From Actinomycetota bacterium (GTDB lineage: Bacteria; Actinomycetota; Aquicultoria; Aquicultorales; Aquicultoraceae), in the NCBI GenBank assembly GCA_030018005.1, contig JASEGT010000013.1, positions 1 through 41,495 on the forward strand: a stretch of 41,495 nt of DNA, read 5' to 3'. Of the stretch, positions 10,736-23,221 are shown one piece after another. Position 1 is the first letter of the stretch, and the number at the start of each line of letters is the position of its first letter. The position numbers were made by a program, and so were the translations under genes. The notes beneath the pieces are model-generated. The model saw only the letters and a list, made by a program, of their open reading frames with translations, was not told the DNA's origin and made no database searches.

Positions 10736-11152
10736 TTACCTCCTTCCTTCATTGATGACATTCTTAAGACCCGTAAAACGGCTTGCGATCAGCTGTGCCA
10801 TAGTATTGAATCGGATATTGTTTTCCGCCAAATTCGTCATCTCTTCATCGACATCGACGTTGTTACCATCCTCGCGCATTGAAGTCGCGTTAAGCACGTC
10901 GACTCGCGCACCGACCCCCGCAAGCGACCTTCCTCCAGGTAAGTGTCGCGCATCTGTCTGCTGCATTCGAGAATCATACTTCTTATCCAGCGCACGCTTC
11001 AACTCCCCCTCAAAGAGAACGTCTCGCTTTTTATAGCCAGGTGTATTAATATTCGCGATGTTCCCCGAGATTACCTGCTGTCTAAGTGAAGTAGCATCCA
11101 TACCTTTTTGCAGAGCAACGAACGTATCGCCCGAAAATAATTTCCCAATCAA
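10736..11152 (-). CDS. flgB: Flagellar proximal rod protein FlgB
   Basis: FlgB is the most proximal rod subunit. The 138-residue product contains the rod signature SGNIANINTPGYKKRDVLFE (about 28-47) and the C-terminal motif VDVDEEMTNLAENNIRFNTMAQLI. The probable start is TTG with GGGGGTGA about 6 bases upstream; the TTGA overlap with the stop of the HTH gene indicates translational coupling between that regulator and the basal-body genes. The family assignment is secure. Confidence 0.95.
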   Translation of the reverse strand: MIGKLFSGDTFVALQKGMDATSLRQQVISGNIANINTPGYKKRDVLFEGELKRALDKKYDSRMQQTDARHLPGGRSLAGVGARVDVLNATSMREDGNNVDVDEEMTNLAENNIRFNTMAQLIASRFTGLKNVINEGRR

Positions 11153-11376
11153 TTCTGGTCACCCCCAGCCGCTTCCAAGCTCTCAAAGACCTCTTCAAAA
11201 TTGCTCCCCGACGCTATATACTTGTCAATAAGCGCCTTGGGGAAACGCCATTCCTTGCCTATTTTAAGGCCCGGCAATTTTTTCTCGCGCGCGAGCCTAC
11301 AAACCGTAATCTGGCTCATCTGCAAATATTCGGCAAGCTGTTTTGCGGTCATGATATCGGTGATAGTCTTCTTCAT
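11149..11376 (-). CDS. BldC/excisionase-family HTH DNA-binding protein at the head of the flagellar operon
   Basis: A 75-residue protein that is nearly all one winged helix-turn-helix of the excisionase/BldC type (TIGR01764, HTH_17). Residues 9-46 read MTAKQLAEYLQMSQITVCRL followed by AREKKLPGLKIGKEWRF, the hallmark of this MerR-related fold. A short acidic tail (NFEEVFESLEAAGG) follows. The start ATG has GGAGG 6 bases upstream. It is the first gene of the basal-body operon and overlaps flgB by 4 bases, so it is made in step with the rod genes. The upstream region has two 17-bp direct repeats. I infer a flagellar operon regulator, possibly autoregulatory. Such proteins bind DNA, but the target here is unproven. 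Confidence 0.85.
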   Translation of the reverse strand: MKKTITDIMTAKQLAEYLQMSQITVCRLAREKKLPGLKIGKEWRFPKALIDKYIASGSNFEEVFESLEAAGGDQN

Positions 11377-11452
11377 CGCAATCCTCCGGCTTTACCATTG
11401 GTCTCGCTGGCTAAGCACCAAATCCTTTATCCAGCAAGCAATGGCTTCATAT

Positions 11453-11482
11453 ATATTAAGATAAAGTCCGGTTGTTTATCAA
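11453..11482 (-). promoter_or_regulatory. Candidate vegetative-type promoter for the HTH-flgB operon
   Basis: On the minus strand TTGATA (11477-11482) and TAATAT (11453-11458) are separated by 18 bases, giving five and four matches to TTGACA and TATAAT. Transcription would begin about 70 bases before the HTH start codon. The spacer contains almost all of one of the two direct repeats, the arrangement MerR-type regulators use. It is a prediction from sequence only. Confidence 0.45.
11461..11477. promoter_or_regulatory. Direct repeat 1, candidate operator
   Basis: ATAAAGTCCGGTTGTTT, matching the copy at 11521 in 15 of 17 positions. It lies between the proposed -35 and -10 elements of the HTH-flgB operon. 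It is a candidate binding site for the HTH protein encoded just downstream. Confidence 0.55.
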
Positions 11483-11629: not shown

Positions 11630-11824
11630 TTACATGCGAGCGGCGAAGAAAACAATTCTCGGCTCAAGATCTGAGGAATCTTCGGGGAGGTTGATGTTGA
11701 TTTGATTTGTGCGGAATACTTCTGTCATTCGGTATTCCTTGGCCCCTGTTACCAGCCCGGCCCTGTCAACCCTTTGTTCGCCTCGCGCCTCAGAATCTAT
11801 ATTTAAAGCTATTGCTTCCGACAT
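11630..11824 (-). CDS. 64-residue orphan protein with a sigma-28-type promoter
   Basis: A small acidic protein (MSEAIALNIDSEARG... ending RIVFFAARM) with no signal peptide, membrane segment or family I can recognise. Evidence that it is a gene: ATG with AAGGAG 5 bases upstream, and a sigma-28-like promoter (TAAA-N16-GCCGAAAT) that would place the transcript start about 30 bases before the ATG. It sits alone between the glycosyltransferase genes and the basal-body operon. Expression with late flagellar genes would suggest a filament, motor or chemotaxis accessory, but nothing in the protein says which. Confidence 0.65.
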   Translation of the reverse strand: MSEAIALNIDSEARGEQRVDRAGLVTGAKEYRMTEVFRTNQININLPEDSSDLEPRIVFFAARM

Positions 11825-11916: not shown

Positions 11917-14070
11917 TTATATGTTCTGTCTAAGCTCGGCAATTAGGAGGGAGTTCGGATATTTGCCTGCGCCGGCGTCGAAGACCTCCGCGGCGAGGCC
12001 TATCTCACCTTGTTTTATGAGGGTGCGCCCTAACAGTACGAAGAGCCCGAGTTCTTCGACTCCTCTATACAGCGCTTCAAAGAAAAAAGTCTTGGCCTCT
12101 TCAAAGAACTCATTGTCAAACGCAGTGCCACCAAGGATATAAAAAGACTCTCCGTCTGCACTTCCGCTTTCGTACGCGTGAATCAGTTCTTCAACAGCGA
12201 TTTCGTTATAACCGGCATCATAATATATCTTCCCAAGAAAGAGACTGCTCTCGCCTGGCGATAGGCCTAGCTCGTCTAATAGGGCTACGGCTTTTTCAAA
12301 GACGTCCAGATTCTTCAGCTCTAAGAGTTTCCCCATAAGGTCGGCGACAATTTGCAGGGCGCTATCTTTCTCGGCGCCATCCAGCGAAATCGAAGAAACC
12401 TGTCCTTCCGACAGAGAAGCTATCGATCGATAAATCGCATGAACCAAAGCAAAATCTTCGATGCTTTTGATGAGGTCGATGGCCTCAATCGCTCGTTTGC
12501 TATCTCCGATGAGCATGAAGCAGACTGACTTGTTTGCGCATGCCGCAGAGTAATGTTGGCTCGATATCGCGACCTTATCGAATTCAGCGATCGCCTCCTT
12601 GAAATACCCCAGATTGAACAAGCATTCCCCCTTAAGGAGCGCCGTTTGGGAGGGGGCAGATCCCCTTTTCACTAGTTGTTCTACGTATATGAGGCTTATA
12701 TCATAATAGCCGGTTTGACTAAATAAGAGCGCTAAGGAAGAAAGCACGGCCTCGGATGTCAGGTCAACCTGCGACTCTAGAATTTGCCTGACATTTTCCG
12801 GCCCGTCTTTGCGCATTAGAAGCAGGCCTAAATCATATGCGGCCCGACCATACCCGGCATTCAGCGCCAGAGCTTTTTCATAATAGCATATAGACTTCGC
12901 CTCATCACCGAGCGCCATATATGTTCGGGCGGCCATGTATGCTGCCATATAGCTACCGACACCTGAATGACTGGAATAGAGGCTTCTATGCGAGCCCATC
13001 GTCAAGCAAGTCTCAAAACACGTTGTGGCCGATTCATAGTCGCGCTCCTCGAAATGGACTAGTCCTTCCAGGTAGAATAGGTCCACGTATTCCGGATAAG
13101 CGTCTTGAGCGTCCCTGAGCAGCTTGAGTGCCTCCTGGTACCGGCCCAAGCCCTTAAGACACAGAGACATGTTGCTCGCGAGCCTCGCAGCATTCTGAAT
13201 ATCCGAGCCCGAGAGATTCGCGAAAGCACGCTTGTAGCTCTCGAGCGCTCTCTTAAAATCACCCTGCGCTAAGTAATCGACCCCGACTTTGATTCGAAGA
13301 CTGAAATCACCCGAGCCGTCGTCCCGCTCGCTCATAATAATCCTAAGGTCACGCTGCGCTTTGTTGGCTTTCGGCTTATTCAGGTACCCGAAATTGTTGA
13401 TCCTGACCTCTGCGACACCAACACTTGGGTTATTTTGTCGAGCGCTCACCTTCAACTGCTCCTGGTCTGCGTCAGCGAAACGATACTCCGATTTGTTCCG
13501 CCAGAGCCTGAAAGAAAGACTTGAAACGGCACCGTCTTCCTCCCGCGCCCCGACGTAATATATTTCACCAAGATAGAATCCACTATGATCGATGTCTTGA
13601 AGCAATTCAGCCAGCTTCGATACGTCCTCCGCTATCAACTCATCATCGGCATCTAGAAAGAGCACCCAGTCGCAGGTAGCGTTCTCCAGACAGATGTTGC
13701 CGGCTTCAGACCAACTATTGTTCCACGGGTGGAAAACTACCTTGGCTCCGTGACTTCGCGCAATTTCTACGGTCTGGTCGGATGAGCCTGTATCCACAAC
13801 AATAATCTCGTTCGCTATGTCTTTGATGCTCTCCAAACTCCGTGCAATATTGGTCTCTTCATTTCTAACTATCATGGCTACTGATAGTGACGCAAGCTCA
13901 ATATGCTTATCCGGAAATCGCCAGGGCTCCTGCATGTAGCGTGTAGCAAAGACCTCTATCGGGTCGCTTTCTCCCAAATCATCTGCCGGGAAACCCGGGG
14001 CTGTGCTCGTCAAACCAAACACTAAACCACAGTCGCTCTTTCTCTCGTCGTCTAGCTTTTTACCAGGCAC
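11917..14070 (-). CDS. Family 2 glycosyltransferase with TPR repeats
   Basis: A 717-residue protein. An N-terminal extension precedes a GT-A (GT2) domain at about 60-260 with SVAMIVRNEETNIARSLES, the nucleotide-binding IIVVDTGSSDQT, and the metal-site motif FLDADDEL. From about residue 265 to the end are many TPR-like helix pairs (for example AYPEYVDLFYLEGLVHFEE and AYMAARTYMALGDEAKSICY). This architecture is common for sugar transferases that act on proteins or surface glycans. It starts with GTG inside the end of the upstream transferase gene (19-base overlap), so the two form a unit. Location between the flagellin and basal-body operons suggests flagellin glycosylation; the acceptor and sugar cannot be read from sequence. 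Confidence 0.88.
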   Translation of the reverse strand: MPGKKLDDERKSDCGLVFGLTSTAPGFPADDLGESDPIEVFATRYMQEPWRFPDKHIELASLSVAMIVRNEETNIARSLESIKDIANEIIVVDTGSSDQTVEIARSHGAKVVFHPWNNSWSEAGNICLENATCDWVLFLDADDELIAEDVSKLAELLQDIDHSGFYLGEIYYVGAREEDGAVSSLSFRLWRNKSEYRFADADQEQLKVSARQNNPSVGVAEVRINNFGYLNKPKANKAQRDLRIIMSERDDGSGDFSLRIKVGVDYLAQGDFKRALESYKRAFANLSGSDIQNAARLASNMSLCLKGLGRYQEALKLLRDAQDAYPEYVDLFYLEGLVHFEERDYESATTCFETCLTMGSHRSLYSSHSGVGSYMAAYMAARTYMALGDEAKSICYYEKALALNAGYGRAAYDLGLLLMRKDGPENVRQILESQVDLTSEAVLSSLALLFSQTGYYDISLIYVEQLVKRGSAPSQTALLKGECLFNLGYFKEAIAEFDKVAISSQHYSAACANKSVCFMLIGDSKRAIEAIDLIKSIEDFALVHAIYRSIASLSEGQVSSISLDGAEKDSALQIVADLMGKLLELKNLDVFEKAVALLDELGLSPGESSLFLGKIYYDAGYNEIAVEELIHAYESGSADGESFYILGGTAFDNEFFEEAKTFFFEALYRGVEELGLFVLLGRTLIKQGEIGLAAEVFDAGAGKYPNSLLIAELRQNI

Positions 14071-15875
14071 AAGCCCACCCCCCCTCTGTCGTCGACCCTA
14101 ACCTTTTTAGCCACCATCATATAATGAGAGTATTGAATCTCGGCGGTCAGGCTTGCCGCCGCTACATTCAACGGTTTGATACTCTTCATAAACGCACTCG
14201 CCTCATCGGAGTCGACGCACCCATTGGTAATTCCCTCAACGGCTTCGATCTCAAATCCTGCCAATTTGAACATATAAACGATTTCTCGAAGGGTAAACGA
14301 TTTGGGATGGGTCCCGTCTAAGGTGCCGTTACCGCTATAGCGCCAACAACCCTTTAGGAAATCCTTTATGACCGGCAAGTACAGTGTGTTGGGGATGCAA
14401 GCAATGATTCTCCCGTTCGCGGTCAAGAGGTTACCCTGCTTTACCAGCGCTCGCCAGGGCTCCTGCAAGTTCTCAAGCACCCCCCTGTAGATAATGCAAT
14501 CAAAGAAATTACTCCTAAACGGAAGCTCCACTTCCTCGGTATTGCCTATGATCACCTTGTCGAGGCGATCGATGGCCTTGTTCGCGACGACCTCGTTCTC
14601 TTCAACGCCGAAAATCTCCTTCACGCCTTTTGACCTCAAAATATCGCCAAGCAGTCCTTCGCCGCAGCCAATTTCCAGAACCCTCTTTGCATCGGCCGGC
14701 ACAGACCTCGCAAGAATCTCGTCGTCTCTTCGGGAATTAAACCTGTTCTTTTCGTAGAGATACGCCTGATCGTTGTTTACGGATGAGATGGCATCTTGAA
14801 TCAATACCCCGTTATCCTGGTGCAACGCATGCTCTAGTATAAACTCTAGTCTGTTGACGTAAGTGTGCTCTTTTAAACATCGCTCTCGTGCGAGAAGAGC
14901 CATTTCTTCTCTCTCATCAGAATGCTCTACGTAATGCGCGATTTTATCGGCTAACTCAACGGGCGATGTGAAGATGTCGACCTCTTTGCCGACCTCAAAG
15001 TATCTTTCAAGATTGGGTGATGCACTCTCGATCAGCTGGAAGCCGCCACTGGCCGCAATCTCGAACGTCTTGTGGTCCGGCGAAGAGCGCACGATATTGT
15101 ATTCTTGCCCGTTGACTCGCAACGTCAAATCGCGGTTACCCTGCAGATTTAGATTTATCTTTGCATTCGAATAGTATCTTGCCCTATCCGCGGCGTATAT
15201 CGCACGGTTAGAAATCGACTTATTAAGCATATGTGCGGATTTTAACGCGTCCCATCGCTCACCTATGATTCTCGTTCGAACATCGCTGTCGACAAGAAAA
15301 CCCGCTATCGCATCGATGATCTCGGCAGGGCCGCCCTCGCCCGACCCGATAGCGCACACGTCATACTCAAAATGGGAAACCGGCTGTTTTTTAAAGACGC
15401 CCGGGAATGCCGCTTGTGGCAAGTAAGACACATTCTTGCAACCGCAATCGAGGTAAATTTCGACGAGGTTCGACTCGAATGTGAATACATAGTCGTAAAC
15501 ATGTGCGTGTTTAAGTGTCTCAGCTACCCCGCTATCGTCCAGAACCCACAGCACAACTACGGCTCCCGTTTTTTGTATCGACCGGACAGTCATCGGCGGC
15601 AGAAAACAGCCTTGGGTTGTCAGAACCAAATCGGGCTCAAACTCAGAGACGAGCTGCAGAAGCGGAGCGACTGAATACTTATATAGGTGATTAGATGAAT
15701 AATCTATATCATATGCTTCTTTCGCATGATTAAACACGTCGTCAAAGAATTTGATGTGGGCGGCAAAATCAAAAAACCTGTAATCGACGTCCATATCGCG
15801 AAGGGTCAGGTCGATATACCTATCAAACGGCTTATCAGCCGAATCCAGGCCGGAGTTAACGAATACAACCTTCAC
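14052..15875 (-). CDS. CgeB-like glycosyltransferase fused to a SAM methyltransferase
   Basis: This 607-residue protein (from a GTG at 15875) has two parts. Residues 1-350 resemble CgeB/DUF3880-type glycosyltransferases, with the GT-B C-terminal core YYSNAKINLNLQGNRD and KTFEIAASGGFQLIES. Residues 375-560 are a class I methyltransferase with the SAM-binding motif VLEIGCGEGLLGDIL, the acidic strand FGVEENE, and the Methyltransf_11 stretch FFDCIIYRGVLENL. A TTG at 15893 would extend the N-terminus by 6 residues but lacks a good ribosome site; GGAGAAGGGG lies upstream of 15875. The pairing suggests transfer and O-methylation of a sugar on one surface polymer, plausibly flagellin. The substrate is unknown. 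Confidence 0.86.
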   Translation of the reverse strand: MKVVFVNSGLDSADKPFDRYIDLTLRDMDVDYRFFDFAAHIKFFDDVFNHAKEAYDIDYSSNHLYKYSVAPLLQLVSEFEPDLVLTTQGCFLPPMTVRSIQKTGAVVVLWVLDDSGVAETLKHAHVYDYVFTFESNLVEIYLDCGCKNVSYLPQAAFPGVFKKQPVSHFEYDVCAIGSGEGGPAEIIDAIAGFLVDSDVRTRIIGERWDALKSAHMLNKSISNRAIYAADRARYYSNAKINLNLQGNRDLTLRVNGQEYNIVRSSPDHKTFEIAASGGFQLIESASPNLERYFEVGKEVDIFTSPVELADKIAHYVEHSDEREEMALLARERCLKEHTYVNRLEFILEHALHQDNGVLIQDAISSVNNDQAYLYEKNRFNSRRDDEILARSVPADAKRVLEIGCGEGLLGDILRSKGVKEIFGVEENEVVANKAIDRLDKVIIGNTEEVELPFRSNFFDCIIYRGVLENLQEPWRALVKQGNLLTANGRIIACIPNTLYLPVIKDFLKGCWRYSGNGTLDGTHPKSFTLREIVYMFKLAGFEIEAVEGITNGCVDSDEASAFMKSIKPLNVAAASLTAEIQYSHYMMVAKKVRVDDRGGVGLCLVKS

Positions 15876-15992
15876 CTGCAACCCCTTCTCCAACCACTTC
15901 TAGACAAAGACTTTAATTACTGCTGCAATCGTAAGAATACCAAACTATACTATATCCATGTTATCAAAAATCTATAACAGAAGCGACGCGTT

Positions 15993-16028
15993 GTAAAGCA
16001 ATGAAGCATTAGCGCCTCATTGCTTTAC
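15993..16028. terminator. 12-bp inverted repeat downstream of the exoprotein gene
   Basis: GTAAAGCAATGA (15993-16004) and its exact complement (16017-16028) flank a 12-base loop, beginning 36 bp past the stop of the PxKF gene. There is no T-run on either side, so it is not a classical intrinsic terminator. It may act as an mRNA 3'-end stabiliser or a weak terminator. The remaining 100 bp before the transferase gene is AT-rich with a possible TATAGT -10 element but no convincing -35. Confidence 0.45.
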
Positions 16029-16063
16029 GAGCCATTAGAAGATTAGTTTGCACTTATCGTATA

Positions 16064-18307
16064 TTATCTAAGCGTTGTCTCCAAGTACTTGGAGCTTCCG
16101 TCATTTAGTTCAACACGCACCCGCCACGTGCCCACGGAGAGATTCTTGGTTGAGAGGTTGAAGATATACCGTTCGCCGTCGCTGTCATAGCGGAATAGGT
16201 TCCCGCTATTTGCCGAACCCGAGGGAATGCCTTCAAGCTCGACACCGGGCACGCCGTTTTCGATCTTTGCCGCATAAATCTTGGCTACGGCATCTTTTAT
16301 GAAATTGCCGCTTGCGTCTTTAATCTGGAACTTGACCGGTATTGTACTGCCAAATTTTGCGCTACTTGTGTTCGGCGGCAAAAACCGGAAGTCTTCGTAA
16401 CGGACGAAATACGTTACCGTCTTGACCGAGTGATTGCCGGCATTGTCTGTGGCTTCAACCGTAAAGGTATGCGCCCCTACTATTGAGGTGTCGATAGGCG
16501 CTCCGCTAGGTACGGTTCCGGTTGCTAAGACCAAACCTGAGATGCTGTCCATTGCCGTCCACTCGGCGAGAACGTTCTCGCCTAAAGAGTACTCCCCGCC
16601 GTCGGCCGGTATGCTTATGTCTATAATGGGTGCGGTTTTGTCCACCCCTATTTGCTGCTCTTTAACTGCGCCTACATTTCCGGCTTTATCGGTCGAGCGA
16701 TAGTGCACGGTTGTCCTACCGTCAACAGAGATTGTAAATGGCGCTGTGCAGTTTATCCAGTTTACACCATCGAGGTTATATTCCGTTTTCGCCACACCGG
16801 AGCCGCCCTCGTTGTCTACCGAGGTAAGGCCTACCTTAACATCAGATAAATACCAACCGTTATCACCCGGAGTACCAAAAAGCTCGATTATAGTTGCCGG
16901 CGCAGTCTTATCGGAGGAATTCGAGCCCCAACCATTCGGCTTCGTCCAGGGAAGATAATCCGCGCAACGGCCGACGTAATAGGGTTTATCCACAAACCCG
17001 TCACCGTTGCCATCGGGTCCCGTCCAGTTGCTCCAGTAATTTCCACCCGACGGCTTCCCTATATTAAACCCGTTGCTCTGAGGCCAACCATCTACGCCGA
17101 CAGACTGGGTGCCGTTAGCGACAAAGTTGTTATTATATATCTTATTATAGGCGCTGTAGAGCGTAGAGATTCCGCACCCGTTTCTAGAGATAGTGTTTCT
17201 GCTAAGCGTCCCATAAACCATTGTTGAAAGAAAAAGGCCATGCTGGCGGTTACTCTCGCTTATGCAATCAGTAAGGGTGCTGTAAGTGCTCGCACCGAAG
17301 TAAAACCCGCCGTCGCGATTTAGACTCGCCGAGCTATCTTCAACGATACAACTATCTGATTGGCTTATGAAAACGCCCCATGCGCCATTTCGCACGGCAT
17401 TGTTGTTCGAGACAGTATTTGAAGAGGATTGATATTGTAGTGTCAACCCTGTATATGCATTTACTTCCTGAACATTGCCCGACAGAGCATTCTTGTATGA
17501 GCAATTGACCCTTATCCCATAGGCATTGGAAGAAGCGACGTTGTCGACAATAGCATTATTGTTTGAGTGGTCAAGAAGGATTCCGATATAAAACCCCTTA
17601 ACCGTAGCGTTTTTAACCGTAACACCAGTCCTTCCGTGAAGGTAGATGCCGCTGCCCGACCCGCTTCCGGTTACCGTGTGGCCGTTTCCATCTAAAGTTA
17701 TGCCATCGCTATCTATCTGAATCGTCTCAAATACATCGCTGGTTAGGGTGGCGGTCTTTGTTACCGGGTCCCAGGTTCCTATGCCGTCTCTGCTCCAACC
17801 GCTATCGCTAAGAAATATCGTAGAGGGCCTGGGCTGGATAAAGACCGAGTGCGCCTTGGAGAGGTCCTGGATATAGAAATAATTGCCGTTTTCGTCGGTG
17901 GTAAATGCAACATGATTGCGGTAATCGTCTTCGTATTTGTGATAGGTGGTGAGCGGAACAAAACCGCCCAGGGTAACCGAGGTAGAGCCAGCGCCTGAGG
18001 CAGCCTCAAGCTGCATAGCAACCATCTCGGGTACAGATTCGAGTACAAGCTTTACCGGCTCCGAGCTATCGAGAGATATATTTAGATATTCACTATCGGT
18101 AAGACAAAATCTGATGCCGGTAGATTCTAGTCTTCCGGGTATTTGGGGCTCTAGGGGAATCTCGGGCAGACCAAGGGGGTCATCCGCGAGGTATGGATTG
18201 ACCTCCAGAGGAATTAAAGGCAAGGGTGTTTCCGCCAAAGCTATGCTTGTGCTTAGCAGGCTCAAAACCAAAGTTACTAGAAAAAGGCTTGAGAGTTTCC
18301 TAATCAT
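16064..18307 (-). CDS. Secreted parallel beta-helix (NosD-like) protein with OmpL47-type and PxKF domains
   Basis: A 747-residue exported protein. Residues 1-25 form a clear signal peptide with cleavage after ALA. From about 175 to 430 is a right-handed beta-helix of NosD/PbH1 type, with repeated N-ladder turns such as LLDHSNNNAIVDNVASSNAYG and IYNNNFVANG. Residues 480-640 hold Ig-like/OmpL47-type units beginning DKTAPATIIELFG and DKTAPIIDI. Residues 645-747 are a PxKF domain (motif TIPVKFQIKDASG). There is no LPXTG or C-terminal membrane anchor, so it is probably released or held non-covalently. A perfect sigma-28 promoter lies 250 bp upstream, tying it to motility. Possible roles are adhesion or glycan binding; both are inference. 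Confidence 0.88.
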   Translation of the reverse strand: MIRKLSSLFLVTLVLSLLSTSIALAETPLPLIPLEVNPYLADDPLGLPEIPLEPQIPGRLESTGIRFCLTDSEYLNISLDSSEPVKLVLESVPEMVAMQLEAASGAGSTSVTLGGFVPLTTYHKYEDDYRNHVAFTTDENGNYFYIQDLSKAHSVFIQPRPSTIFLSDSGWSRDGIGTWDPVTKTATLTSDVFETIQIDSDGITLDGNGHTVTGSGSGSGIYLHGRTGVTVKNATVKGFYIGILLDHSNNNAIVDNVASSNAYGIRVNCSYKNALSGNVQEVNAYTGLTLQYQSSSNTVSNNNAVRNGAWGVFISQSDSCIVEDSSASLNRDGGFYFGASTYSTLTDCISESNRQHGLFLSTMVYGTLSRNTISRNGCGISTLYSAYNKIYNNNFVANGTQSVGVDGWPQSNGFNIGKPSGGNYWSNWTGPDGNGDGFVDKPYYVGRCADYLPWTKPNGWGSNSSDKTAPATIIELFGTPGDNGWYLSDVKVGLTSVDNEGGSGVAKTEYNLDGVNWINCTAPFTISVDGRTTVHYRSTDKAGNVGAVKEQQIGVDKTAPIIDISIPADGGEYSLGENVLAEWTAMDSISGLVLATGTVPSGAPIDTSIVGAHTFTVEATDNAGNHSVKTVTYFVRYEDFRFLPPNTSSAKFGSTIPVKFQIKDASGNFIKDAVAKIYAAKIENGVPGVELEGIPSGSANSGNLFRYDSDGERYIFNLSTKNLSVGTWRVRVELNDGSSKYLETTLR

Positions 18308-18564
18308 TTCTTATCCTTTCATTACGAACCATACGTTTGCAGAAAACTTGTGTGCTCCGAGTTCCAGGCATTGCTTAGGCCTGAAACATATACTTGAACC
18401 ATTAATGGTATTACTGCAGAAGATGCAGGATTTCTAGCATAGTCTTAATTGAGTTAATACTGGTTAAGATTTTAGAGCTATAACAATCTTTTAACTGGGG
18501 GAGCTGCGGAAATTCTTGAATCTTAATAATGACGATAACTGTCATATTCTAGCAATTTAATATT
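18308..18564 (-). promoter_or_regulatory. Long 5' leader of the exoprotein gene
   Basis: If transcription begins at the sigma-28 site, the message has about 250 untranslated bases before the ATG at 18307 (ribosome site AAAGGAT). The leader can form a 7-bp hairpin with one G-U pair (18363-18369 with 18379-18385) and contains an ATGAC-N7-GTCAT inverted repeat around 18528-18544. I found no c-di-GMP, SAM or other riboswitch core in it. Confidence 0.35.
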
Positions 18565-18591
18565 ATATCGGCGTCATCTCAGTAATCTTTA
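18565..18591 (-). promoter_or_regulatory. Perfect sigma-28 promoter upstream of the PxKF exoprotein
   Basis: Minus strand TAAA (18588-18591), 15-base spacer, GCCGATAT (18565-18572): an exact match to the Bacillus SigD/FliA consensus, the best in the window. It lies 34 bp from the fliS terminator and points towards the exoprotein gene. No other minus-strand gene lies between them. Confidence 0.75.
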
Positions 18592-18624
18592 GGCGTCGTG
18601 GTTTTTTAGAGAGATTTGAGCGCC

Positions 18625-18658
18625 AAAAAAAATGACCACCCTAGAGACCCAGGGTGGT
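18625..18658 (-). terminator. Intrinsic terminator of the fliD-fliS operon
   Basis: An 8-bp perfect stem, ACCACCCT with AGGGTGGT (18635-18642 and 18651-18658), around an 8-base loop. On the minus strand it is followed by CA and eight T residues (18625-18632). It begins 30 bp after the fliS stop. The plus-strand side has only a short T-run, so termination is mainly for the flagellar operon. Confidence 0.85.
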
Positions 18659-18688: not shown

Positions 18689-19063
18689 TTATCGAATCTC
18701 TCTCCAAGCAGTTCTTAGCTCTTTTAGCAACAATTCGATTTGCTGTATCTTTGCGGCATCGTTAGTGATGTTGGCGATTGCTAGTTCTTTTTGCATGTAT
18801 AGATAGAGGCTCTGCAGGTTGTCCGCAATTTCCCCGCCCACCTCATGGTCGAGAGAGGCGAGGAGTTCCTCGACAATCGCCATCGCCCTGGTTATGTACT
18901 GCGTTTTTTGAGAGACGTTATTGTCGTTCATGCAGAATTGCGCTTTGTTAAGAAATCCTATGGCTCCATCATAAAGAAGAATGATAAGTTCAAGCGGTGT
19001 TGTCGATGTATTAACCATAGCATGTGTATATGCGTTTTGCGCGTAAGCTGTATTTGGTAACAT
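18689..19063 (-). CDS. fliS: Flagellin export chaperone FliS
   Basis: FliS binds newly made flagellin in the cytoplasm, prevents early polymerisation and helps delivery to the export gate. The 124-residue helical protein has the typical start AYTHAMVNTSTTPLELIILLYDGAI and the later KTQYITRAMAIVEELLASLD. Its ATG shares one base with the fliD stop (TAATG), so translation is coupled. The gene is closed by a good terminator. No fliT is visible after it. Confidence 0.96.
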   Translation of the reverse strand: MLPNTAYAQNAYTHAMVNTSTTPLELIILLYDGAIGFLNKAQFCMNDNNVSQKTQYITRAMAIVEELLASLDHEVGGEIADNLQSLYLYMQKELAIANITNDAAKIQQIELLLKELRTAWREIR

Positions 19064-22322: not shown

Positions 22323-22405
22323 TTGCCAGCTATAACCGAGAGTGCCCTTTCCGACCGGCCGGTGCCCGAGAAGATCCTCCCTGGACAGAACTGGACTTAA
22401 CACTT

Positions 22406-22413
22406 ATATCGTC
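22406..22413 (-). promoter_or_regulatory. Possible sigma-28 -10 element for flagellin
   Basis: GACGATAT on the minus strand matches seven of eight positions of GCCGATAT and is identical to the -10 of the MCP promoter at 38364-38371. No TAAA is found at 14-16 bases upstream, so the -35 is weak or absent. A start near here gives a leader of about 125 bases. Confidence 0.45.
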
Positions 22414-22451
22414 AGCTTTTTAAATTTTCTGCACAAGATTAAGAAGGTTTT

Positions 22452-22688
22452 TTAAGAAATATCTTTGGCGAGAAGGTCACTTAAATTCTGAAGGGCGTCT
22501 TTCGATGTGGAAGCGGCGCGGTCATTCTCCTCGAGAATAGCCTTGTATATCTCCTGGCGGTAGACGGGGATATTCTTAGGAGCTTTGATACCGATTTTAA
22601 CGTGGTCGTCTCTTACCTCGACGATGAAGACCTCGATATCGTTACCTATATTAATGCTCTCGTTGATCTTTCTGGTAAGAACCAGCAT
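22452..22688 (-). CDS. csrA: Carbon storage regulator CsrA (RNA-binding)
   Basis: CsrA is a dimeric RNA-binding protein that recognises GGA motifs and represses translation, in Gram-positives chiefly of flagellin. The 78-residue product has the full family sequence: [20 protein letters not shown], then [20 protein letters not shown]. The latter part carries the usual PKNIPVYR motif. A short acidic, Ser/Asp-rich tail follows. GGAGG is 6 bases before the ATG. Order fliW-csrA-flagellin with an 8-bp gap to fliW is the standard partner-switch module. Confidence 0.97.
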
Positions 22689-22696
22689 TGTTCCTC

Positions 22697-23221
22697 CTAG
22701 GCTTCGGATATCAGCGGATGCTTAGTCGTATAGCCATCATAAGCCAAAACAACCTGAATTGCTAAGTTACTGCGAAGATTAATGATTACGGGCGCCATGA
22801 GATTGGCGGTGATCTTTCCCGGATCGCCGGGGATGGTCAAAATAGACAAAACCAGAAGGGAAGCTTCTTCGTCGGCTTCGTCTTCTTCTGTAGCTTTAAG
22901 CTTCTCCAGATCCCACTCGCTTATAGCCGGGTTATAGTCTTCGAAATATGCCCAGGGCTCAACTACCACAAAAGCGACATCCGCCAGCTCAGTCGATTGG
23001 AGCCAAGCAAGCGGGCTGTTTTCCTTATGCGGTATCAAGACAAATTCCTTCGCATCGGGAAACCCCGGTATGCTATCGACAAATCGTATTATTTTGTCCT
23101 CATCTACCTCGACCACACCAAATCTCGTAGTCGTGAACTTTGCTCTAGCCATCGTTTCAACCTTTACCATAATTTTTTCGGGACCCTCTTCGGGCATCAA
23201 CGCTGCAGTTCGGGCATCCAT
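22697..23221 (-). CDS. fliW: Flagellar assembly factor FliW
   Basis: FliW binds either flagellin or CsrA; when flagellin is exported, free FliW sequesters CsrA and flagellin translation resumes. The family core starts at [18 protein letters not shown] and [14 protein letters not shown], and continues to [16 protein letters not shown] and [19 protein letters not shown]. At 174 residues it is longer than most FliW because of about 25 extra N-terminal residues; GGAG lies 6 bases before the first ATG, so this start is kept, but ATG at 23152 ([12 protein letters not shown]) is an alternative. No clear promoter was found, only an isolated TATAAT at 23309-23314. Confidence 0.93.

Follow-up and report, generated by a model that had tools for sequence, protein, structure and literature searches.

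A candidate sigma-28-dependent gene for an exported beta-helix/PxKF protein in the flagellar cluster of an uncultured Candidatus Aquicultor

Sigma-28 promoters are expected at late flagellar genes, so what is the best sigma-28 site of a flagellar gene cluster doing in front of a gene for a large exported protein? The locus lies in a 2.19-Mb genome of 128 contigs from the uncultured genus Candidatus Aquicultor. The window, i.e., the whole stretch of DNA that was analyzed (41,495 nucleotides), corresponds to contig C33 and carries a flagellar/chemotaxis cluster that is read on the minus strand. Flagellar clusters are frequent in Candidatus Aquicultoria, a basal class of Actinobacteria (PMC10746217).

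The gene in question starts with ATG, encodes 747 aa and lies between fliS and a glycosyltransferase-methyltransferase gene (Table 1), the position that a first-pass annotation had assigned to it. On the evidence presented below, it probably encodes a lineage-specific accessory surface or matrix protein that is made under the late flagellar sigma factor.

Table 1. Coordinates of features around the 747-aa protein gene, as positions in the window
Feature	Position	Strand	Remarks
Glycosyltransferase-methyltransferase gene	14052..15893	-	Downstream neighbor; directly after fliS in congeners
12-bp perfect inverted repeat	15993..16028	-	3' of the 747-aa gene, at the downstream junction of the lineage-specific segment
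Lineage-specific segment with promoter and gene	15998..18630 (approximate ends)		Three congeners have no more than about 170 bp in its place
747-aa exported-protein gene	16064..18307	-	Signal peptide, N-terminal region, beta-helix, OmpL47-type/Ig-like repeats, PxKF C-terminal domain
PxKF ('rightmost') domain, residues 644-746	16070..16378	-	NF038114; predicted Ig-like sandwich
OmpL47-type/Ig-like repeat region, residues about 466-635	16403..16912	-	NF047446
Right-handed parallel beta-helix, residues about 161-460	16928..17827	-	PF05048, PF13229, AF2 model
Predicted Sec signal peptide, residues 1-26	18230..18307	-	Judged by eye; no lipobox cysteine
Untranslated leader, about 250 nt	18308..18562	-	AAAGGA ribosome-binding site just 5' of ATG
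Sigma-28-type promoter, TAAA-N15-GCCGATAT	18565..18591	-	Sole exact site in the window
Intrinsic terminator of the fliS transcript	18635..18658	-	Similar hairpin 3' of fliS in three sister genomes
fliS	18689..19063	-	Upstream neighbor of the 747-aa gene; PF02561

Domains and predicted fold of the 747-aa protein

The earlier description of the product, an exported protein with a NosD-like beta-helix, OmpL47-type domains and a PxKF domain, was confirmed by the family matches. The NosD family PF05048 matched with E=1.4e-35, the OmpL47 domain NF047446 covered two stretches with 82 bits (cut-off 40), and the PxKF domain NF038114 scored 61.9 bits, above its curated cut-off of 35, and ended one residue before the stop. 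The N-terminus reads by eye as a Sec-type signal peptide, MIRKLSSLFLVTLVLSLLSTSIALA, with the cleavage point before the following E. About 130 residues between the signal peptide and the beta-helix received no domain assignment, and no LPxTG anchor was found in the protein. AlphaFold (AF2) modeled residues 161-410 and 465-747 with confidence but gave no such model for residues 1-160.

The beta-helix model matched AlgE4 (Z 29.7, 262 residues, rmsd 2.2) and NosD (Z 28.8), and also AlgG, phage tailspikes, a GH87 glucanase and the adhesin PfbA (Z 23.8). Most of these proteins act on glycans, yet a common fold shows no function. Mannuronan C5-epimerases of the AlgE/AlgG type are defined by a DPH motif. 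Since this AlgE-type catalytic motif is absent from the 747-aa protein and no other catalytic motif was recognized in it, it is the fold that suggests glycan action, and judged by the fold, the protein probably binds or modifies glycans.

The PxKF domain is modeled as an Ig-like fold, with Z of about 10 to antibody variable domains. This is uninformative on function because Ig-like sandwiches are very common. In 28 of the 28 loci checked, PxKF stood 0-13 residues from the stop. Within the class, it ends proteins of the ScyF-NHL and choice-of-anchor B types (L109, G019:C43, 8655-10493; L110, G028:C15, 6044-7552), and members of these types elsewhere carry sorting signals where PxKF stands. Based on the fixed C-terminal place, which in these two relatives is the place of a sorting signal, it is a fair guess that PxKF is a terminal attachment or sorting module. 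No papers on PxKF domains were found in a literature search. A search of named genome contigs (by P0001) found no relatives of the 747-aa protein, and one phage record shares only an OmpL47-like stretch with it.

The sigma-28-type promoter and its motif in the genus

The promoter site (TAAAGATTACTGAGATGACGCCGATAT, read on the minus strand from 18591 to 18565) lies 258 bp upstream of the 747-aa gene, behind the fliS terminator. It is the only exact TAAA-N13-17-GCCGATAW site in the window, where shuffles expect 0.08. Scored by a weight matrix that was derived from 11 other genus sites, it received 24.8 bits, compared with 17.9 bits both for the next best site in the window (a lead of 6.9 bits) and for the best site in 12 Markov shuffles. 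It should be noted that this score mainly restates the consensus match, since the training sites were chosen by exact consensus. The site had been called the best sigma-28 site in the window, and by both measures it is.

Because the fliS terminator isolates the promoter, the 747-aa gene would be transcribed alone. The inverted repeat behind the gene lacks a T-tract and is thus not a canonical terminator. The -10 of the promoter shares bases with a perfect TATAAT (GATATAAT), so some use by sigma-A may also occur, although this TATAAT has neither a TTGACA-like -35 nor an extended -10. No sigma-70-like site of at least 9/12 was found on the minus strand within the 255-nt leader. The length of the leader, about 250 nt, was counted against the sigma-28 reading. 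A riboswitch or other RNA element in the leader was considered and rejected, since no Rfam family scored above threshold and the predicted folding was no better than that of shuffles (z 0.06).

The source genome encodes a sigma factor of the FliA/WhiG family (282 bits, with WhiG as the best NCBIfam match) and FlgM. In four genomes of the genus, exact sites numbered 18, 12, 22 and 15, compared with 5, 2, 5 and 2 for the reversed pattern (67 sites vs. 14 control sites in total). Many of the exact sites lie inside genes and are probably due to chance. Intergenic sites that keep both boxes precede genes for a GGDEF/Cache protein (L012/L060), a HAMP/Tll0287 protein (L017/L074), a TPR protein (L011), a cytochrome-c7-like CxxCH protein (L023) and others, and in several of them, e.g., those of the GGDEF and HAMP/Tll0287 proteins, the spacer changes while both boxes stay. 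This enrichment of exact sites in the four genomes, together with boxes conserved across diverged spacers, makes sigma-28 control of the 747-aa gene likely. The first-pass proposal that sigma-28 drives a non-flagellar exported protein is therefore well supported at the sequence level by the site, its strand, the terminator, the presence of FliA and the genus-wide motif.

A usable sigma-28 motif for the genus also predicts other motility-linked genes, among them those for the GGDEF protein, the CxxCH protein and a small conserved flagellar-locus protein; the regulon list consists of pattern hits only. The CxxCH protein is secreted, and its sigma-28-type site is conserved in three genus genomes (L023, G000:C93; L064; L066), a hint of motility-linked extracellular redox chemistry. 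The small protein is a 64-aa ORF (MSEAIALNIDSEARGEQ..., window 11630-11824, minus strand) that belongs to no Pfam family and is conserved between a glycosyltransferase gene and flgB in G000, G001, G002, G005 and G007. A sigma-28-like site lies 5' of it in the window (11889-11862, TAAAGCG...GCCGAAAT), in G005 (ACCGATAT) and in G007 (GCCGATTA), and it is possibly an unannotated late flagellar small protein. Directly before flgB, a 75-aa HTH_17 protein (excisionase-type DNA-binding; 11149-11376, minus strand) is conserved in the flagellar loci of relatives; ORF lists miss it because an antisense ORF (11201-11464) masks it. It could be a regulator of the flagellar cluster.

Elsewhere in the window, a chemoreceptor gene is preceded by TAAAG...GACGATAT at a distance of about 60 nt (38390), and cheW by TAAA-N14-GCCGATTA (40919). 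The flagellin gene fliC has a conserved GACGATAT -10 and no TAAA box, and scores 7.5 bits by the matrix. Flagellin's own sigma-28 site is weaker than that of the 747-aa gene. The suggestion that the two proteins are made together is uncertain because fliC offers a sigma-28-like -10 and lacks the TAAA box. The strongly conserved stretch before fliC (TTTAAAAAGCTGACGATATAA) contains this -10 and no TAAA -35 at the right distance. In this part of the window (22324-22697), csrA lies between fliW and fliC.

A lineage-specific segment beside fliS and the distribution of PxKF proteins

The first-pass annotation had proposed a search of related genomes for the promoter and the gene near flagellar loci. 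In three congeners (G001, G002 and G003), the flagellar cluster is collinear and the glycosyltransferase-methyltransferase is 89-95% identical, yet both the promoter and the 747-aa gene are missing. Neither this absence nor the long leader had been noted in the first-pass annotation. There, fliS is followed directly by the glycosyltransferase-methyltransferase gene, with 175-270 bp in between. At one end, sequence similarity returns at about 15998, and the other boundary falls near 18630, where the fliS terminator is similar but diverged; a segment of ~2.6 kb thus holds the promoter and the gene together. No ortholog of the gene was found in 40 relatives, and segment DNA matched nothing in them except for short repeat-domain stretches in G010. 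The absence from all three congeners favors a recent gain of the segment in this lineage over repeated loss. A foreign composition of the segment was rejected, since its GC, GC3 and codon use are typical of native genes. About 110 bp in G003 were also considered as a remnant of the gene; they share with the segment only the conserved flank and one chance 10-mer.

In five other Aquicultoria flagellar loci, an accessory gene adjacent to fliD/fliS has a sigma-28-like site 49-105 bp upstream of it. These genes encode a radical SAM protein (G006), a glycosyltransferase (G007), a methyltransferase-type protein (G009) and PseC-like aminotransferases (G012 and G024). Over twelve loci, a relaxed pattern found 15 sites, where 2.4 would be expected and the reversed pattern gave 5. 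Since three of the five accessory-gene sites carry TAAG instead of TAAA, this recurrence is suggestive only. It suggests that the 747-aa gene occupies a setting in which late-class accessory genes look normal. A bolder proposal would be that the fliD/fliS slot of Aquicultoria holds variable sigma-28 genes for surface chemistry, and that it has here acquired a beta-helix/PxKF protein whose target is the cell's own glycosylated filament or a surface encountered during swimming, PxKF being a hitherto undescribed C-terminal attachment module; taken as a whole, we think this improbable. In another genus of the family (L045, G009:C42, 104-7681), an RHS/YD-repeat protein and an OmpL47/DNRLRE surface protein are encoded a few kb from fliD/fliS, and neither has a sigma-28 site of its own.

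We found four other PxKF proteins in the class (G006, G010, G019 and G028). Their N-terminal parts differ and include an NHL/ScyF-like propeller and a choice-of-anchor B region, and OmpL47-type repeats precede PxKF in two of the four. None of the four loci has flagellar genes beside the PxKF gene, and FliS matches are absent from two of the genomes (G019 and G028). No sigma-28-like site was found at other PxKF genes in the loci scanned, the leaders of L107-L110 having been read by eye only. Among 296 genomes of the phylum, PxKF was over its cut-off in 30, FliS was present in 50 and both were present in eight, i.e., 8 of 30 PxKF genomes had FliS vs. 42 of 266 others (p=0.11, one-sided Fisher test). 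When both were on one contig (G082, G113 and G146), they were >100 kb apart. These data do not support a general link of PxKF proteins to flagella, nor does the 747-aa gene establish one: the protein shows neither the conserved flagellar location nor the phyletic co-occurrence of a flagellum-associated family.

Rival readings, proposed mode of action and known systems

The segment could be a genomic passenger, an intergenic insertion transcribed mainly by sigma-A or by read-through, with a fortuitous match to sigma-28. That it is lineage-specific, that its leader is long and its -10 overlaps a TATAAT, and that repeat proteins of this kind abound and vary in these genomes would all fit. However, an exact match is unlikely to fall at this spot by chance, the TATAAT has no companion elements, the upstream terminator blocks read-through, and the sigma-28 motif looks functional elsewhere in the genus, so that we regard a passenger as unlikely. 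The 747-aa protein could also be a dedicated partner of the flagellum: it could bind to the glycosylated filament, edit it, or decorate it in the manner of a sheath or an adhesin, a role that the first-pass annotation had in part envisaged. This would agree with the position between fliS and the glycosyltransferases, the sigma-28-type promoter, the carbohydrate-type beta-helix and the glycan or modification genes that occupy the slot in relatives. It agrees poorly with three congeners that have the same flagellar and glycosyltransferase genes and lack this one, with PxKF relatives that lie off flagellar loci and also occur in FliS-less genomes, and with a co-occurrence that is not significant in 296 genomes. 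A specific filament partnership was thus not borne out, and we rate it as distinctly unlikely. The PF05048 match and the NosD and AlgE4 folds might also point to a real NosD-type factor (copper delivery to nitrous oxide reductase) or an alginate-type epimerase, but the protein scores 83.2 bits where the NosD model (TIGR04247) has a cut-off of 300 bits, no nosFYL or nosZ is found among the annotated neighbors (flagellar, chemotaxis and glycosyltransferase genes), and the DPH motif is absent. We consider either function highly improbable.

If the 747-aa protein is an accessory surface or matrix protein, as we propose, FliA would be freed from FlgM late in flagellar assembly, and FliA-RNA polymerase would transcribe the gene from 18565-18591. 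The signal peptide suggests that the protein would leave the cell by Sec, not by the flagellar exporter. To judge from its fold, the beta-helix may then meet, bind or modify polysaccharide, while the OmpL47/Ig repeats may serve as a stalk. PxKF, given its fold and fixed C-terminal place, would be a terminal Ig-like module, perhaps for attachment. The outcome would be a surface-held or shed protein that is made in the motile phase. Our analysis suggests that the gain of a promoter-plus-gene segment brought a secreted surface protein into the flagellar regulon of one lineage, within an uncultured, deep-branching class of actinobacteria in which late flagellar genes are hardly studied.

Several known protein families share a part of the 747-aa protein. 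NosD and the AlgE-type epimerases have the same right-handed parallel beta-helix (Z 28-30), whereas the 747-aa protein is far below the NosD cut-off, has no DPH motif and carries fused Ig-like repeats. OmpL47 of Leptospira (NF047441) has only the repeat in common with it (43.9 bits vs. an equivalog cut-off of 250 bits). PxKF proteins of Actinomycetota likewise have NF038114 over its cut-off at the extreme C-terminus, whereas the four relatives in the class have NHL, choice-of-anchor B or other N-terminal parts, lie off flagellar loci and showed no such promoter in the loci examined. The closest parallel in regulation is with the SigD regulons of Gram-positive bacteria. In a sigD mutant of C. 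difficile, expression of the surface adhesin gene cbpA falls (PMC3865298), and in B. amyloliquefaciens, bslA and the species-unique RBAM_004640/RBAM_018080 are controlled by SigD (PMC5200910). These regulons resemble the present case in their TAAA-N-GCCGATAW promoter logic, in an exported non-flagellar product and in the addition of species-specific genes. However, the protein families are different, and dependence was measured there in sigD mutants, whereas it is predicted here. A surface protein under the swimming program is thus a known arrangement; it is the domain set that is unusual here.
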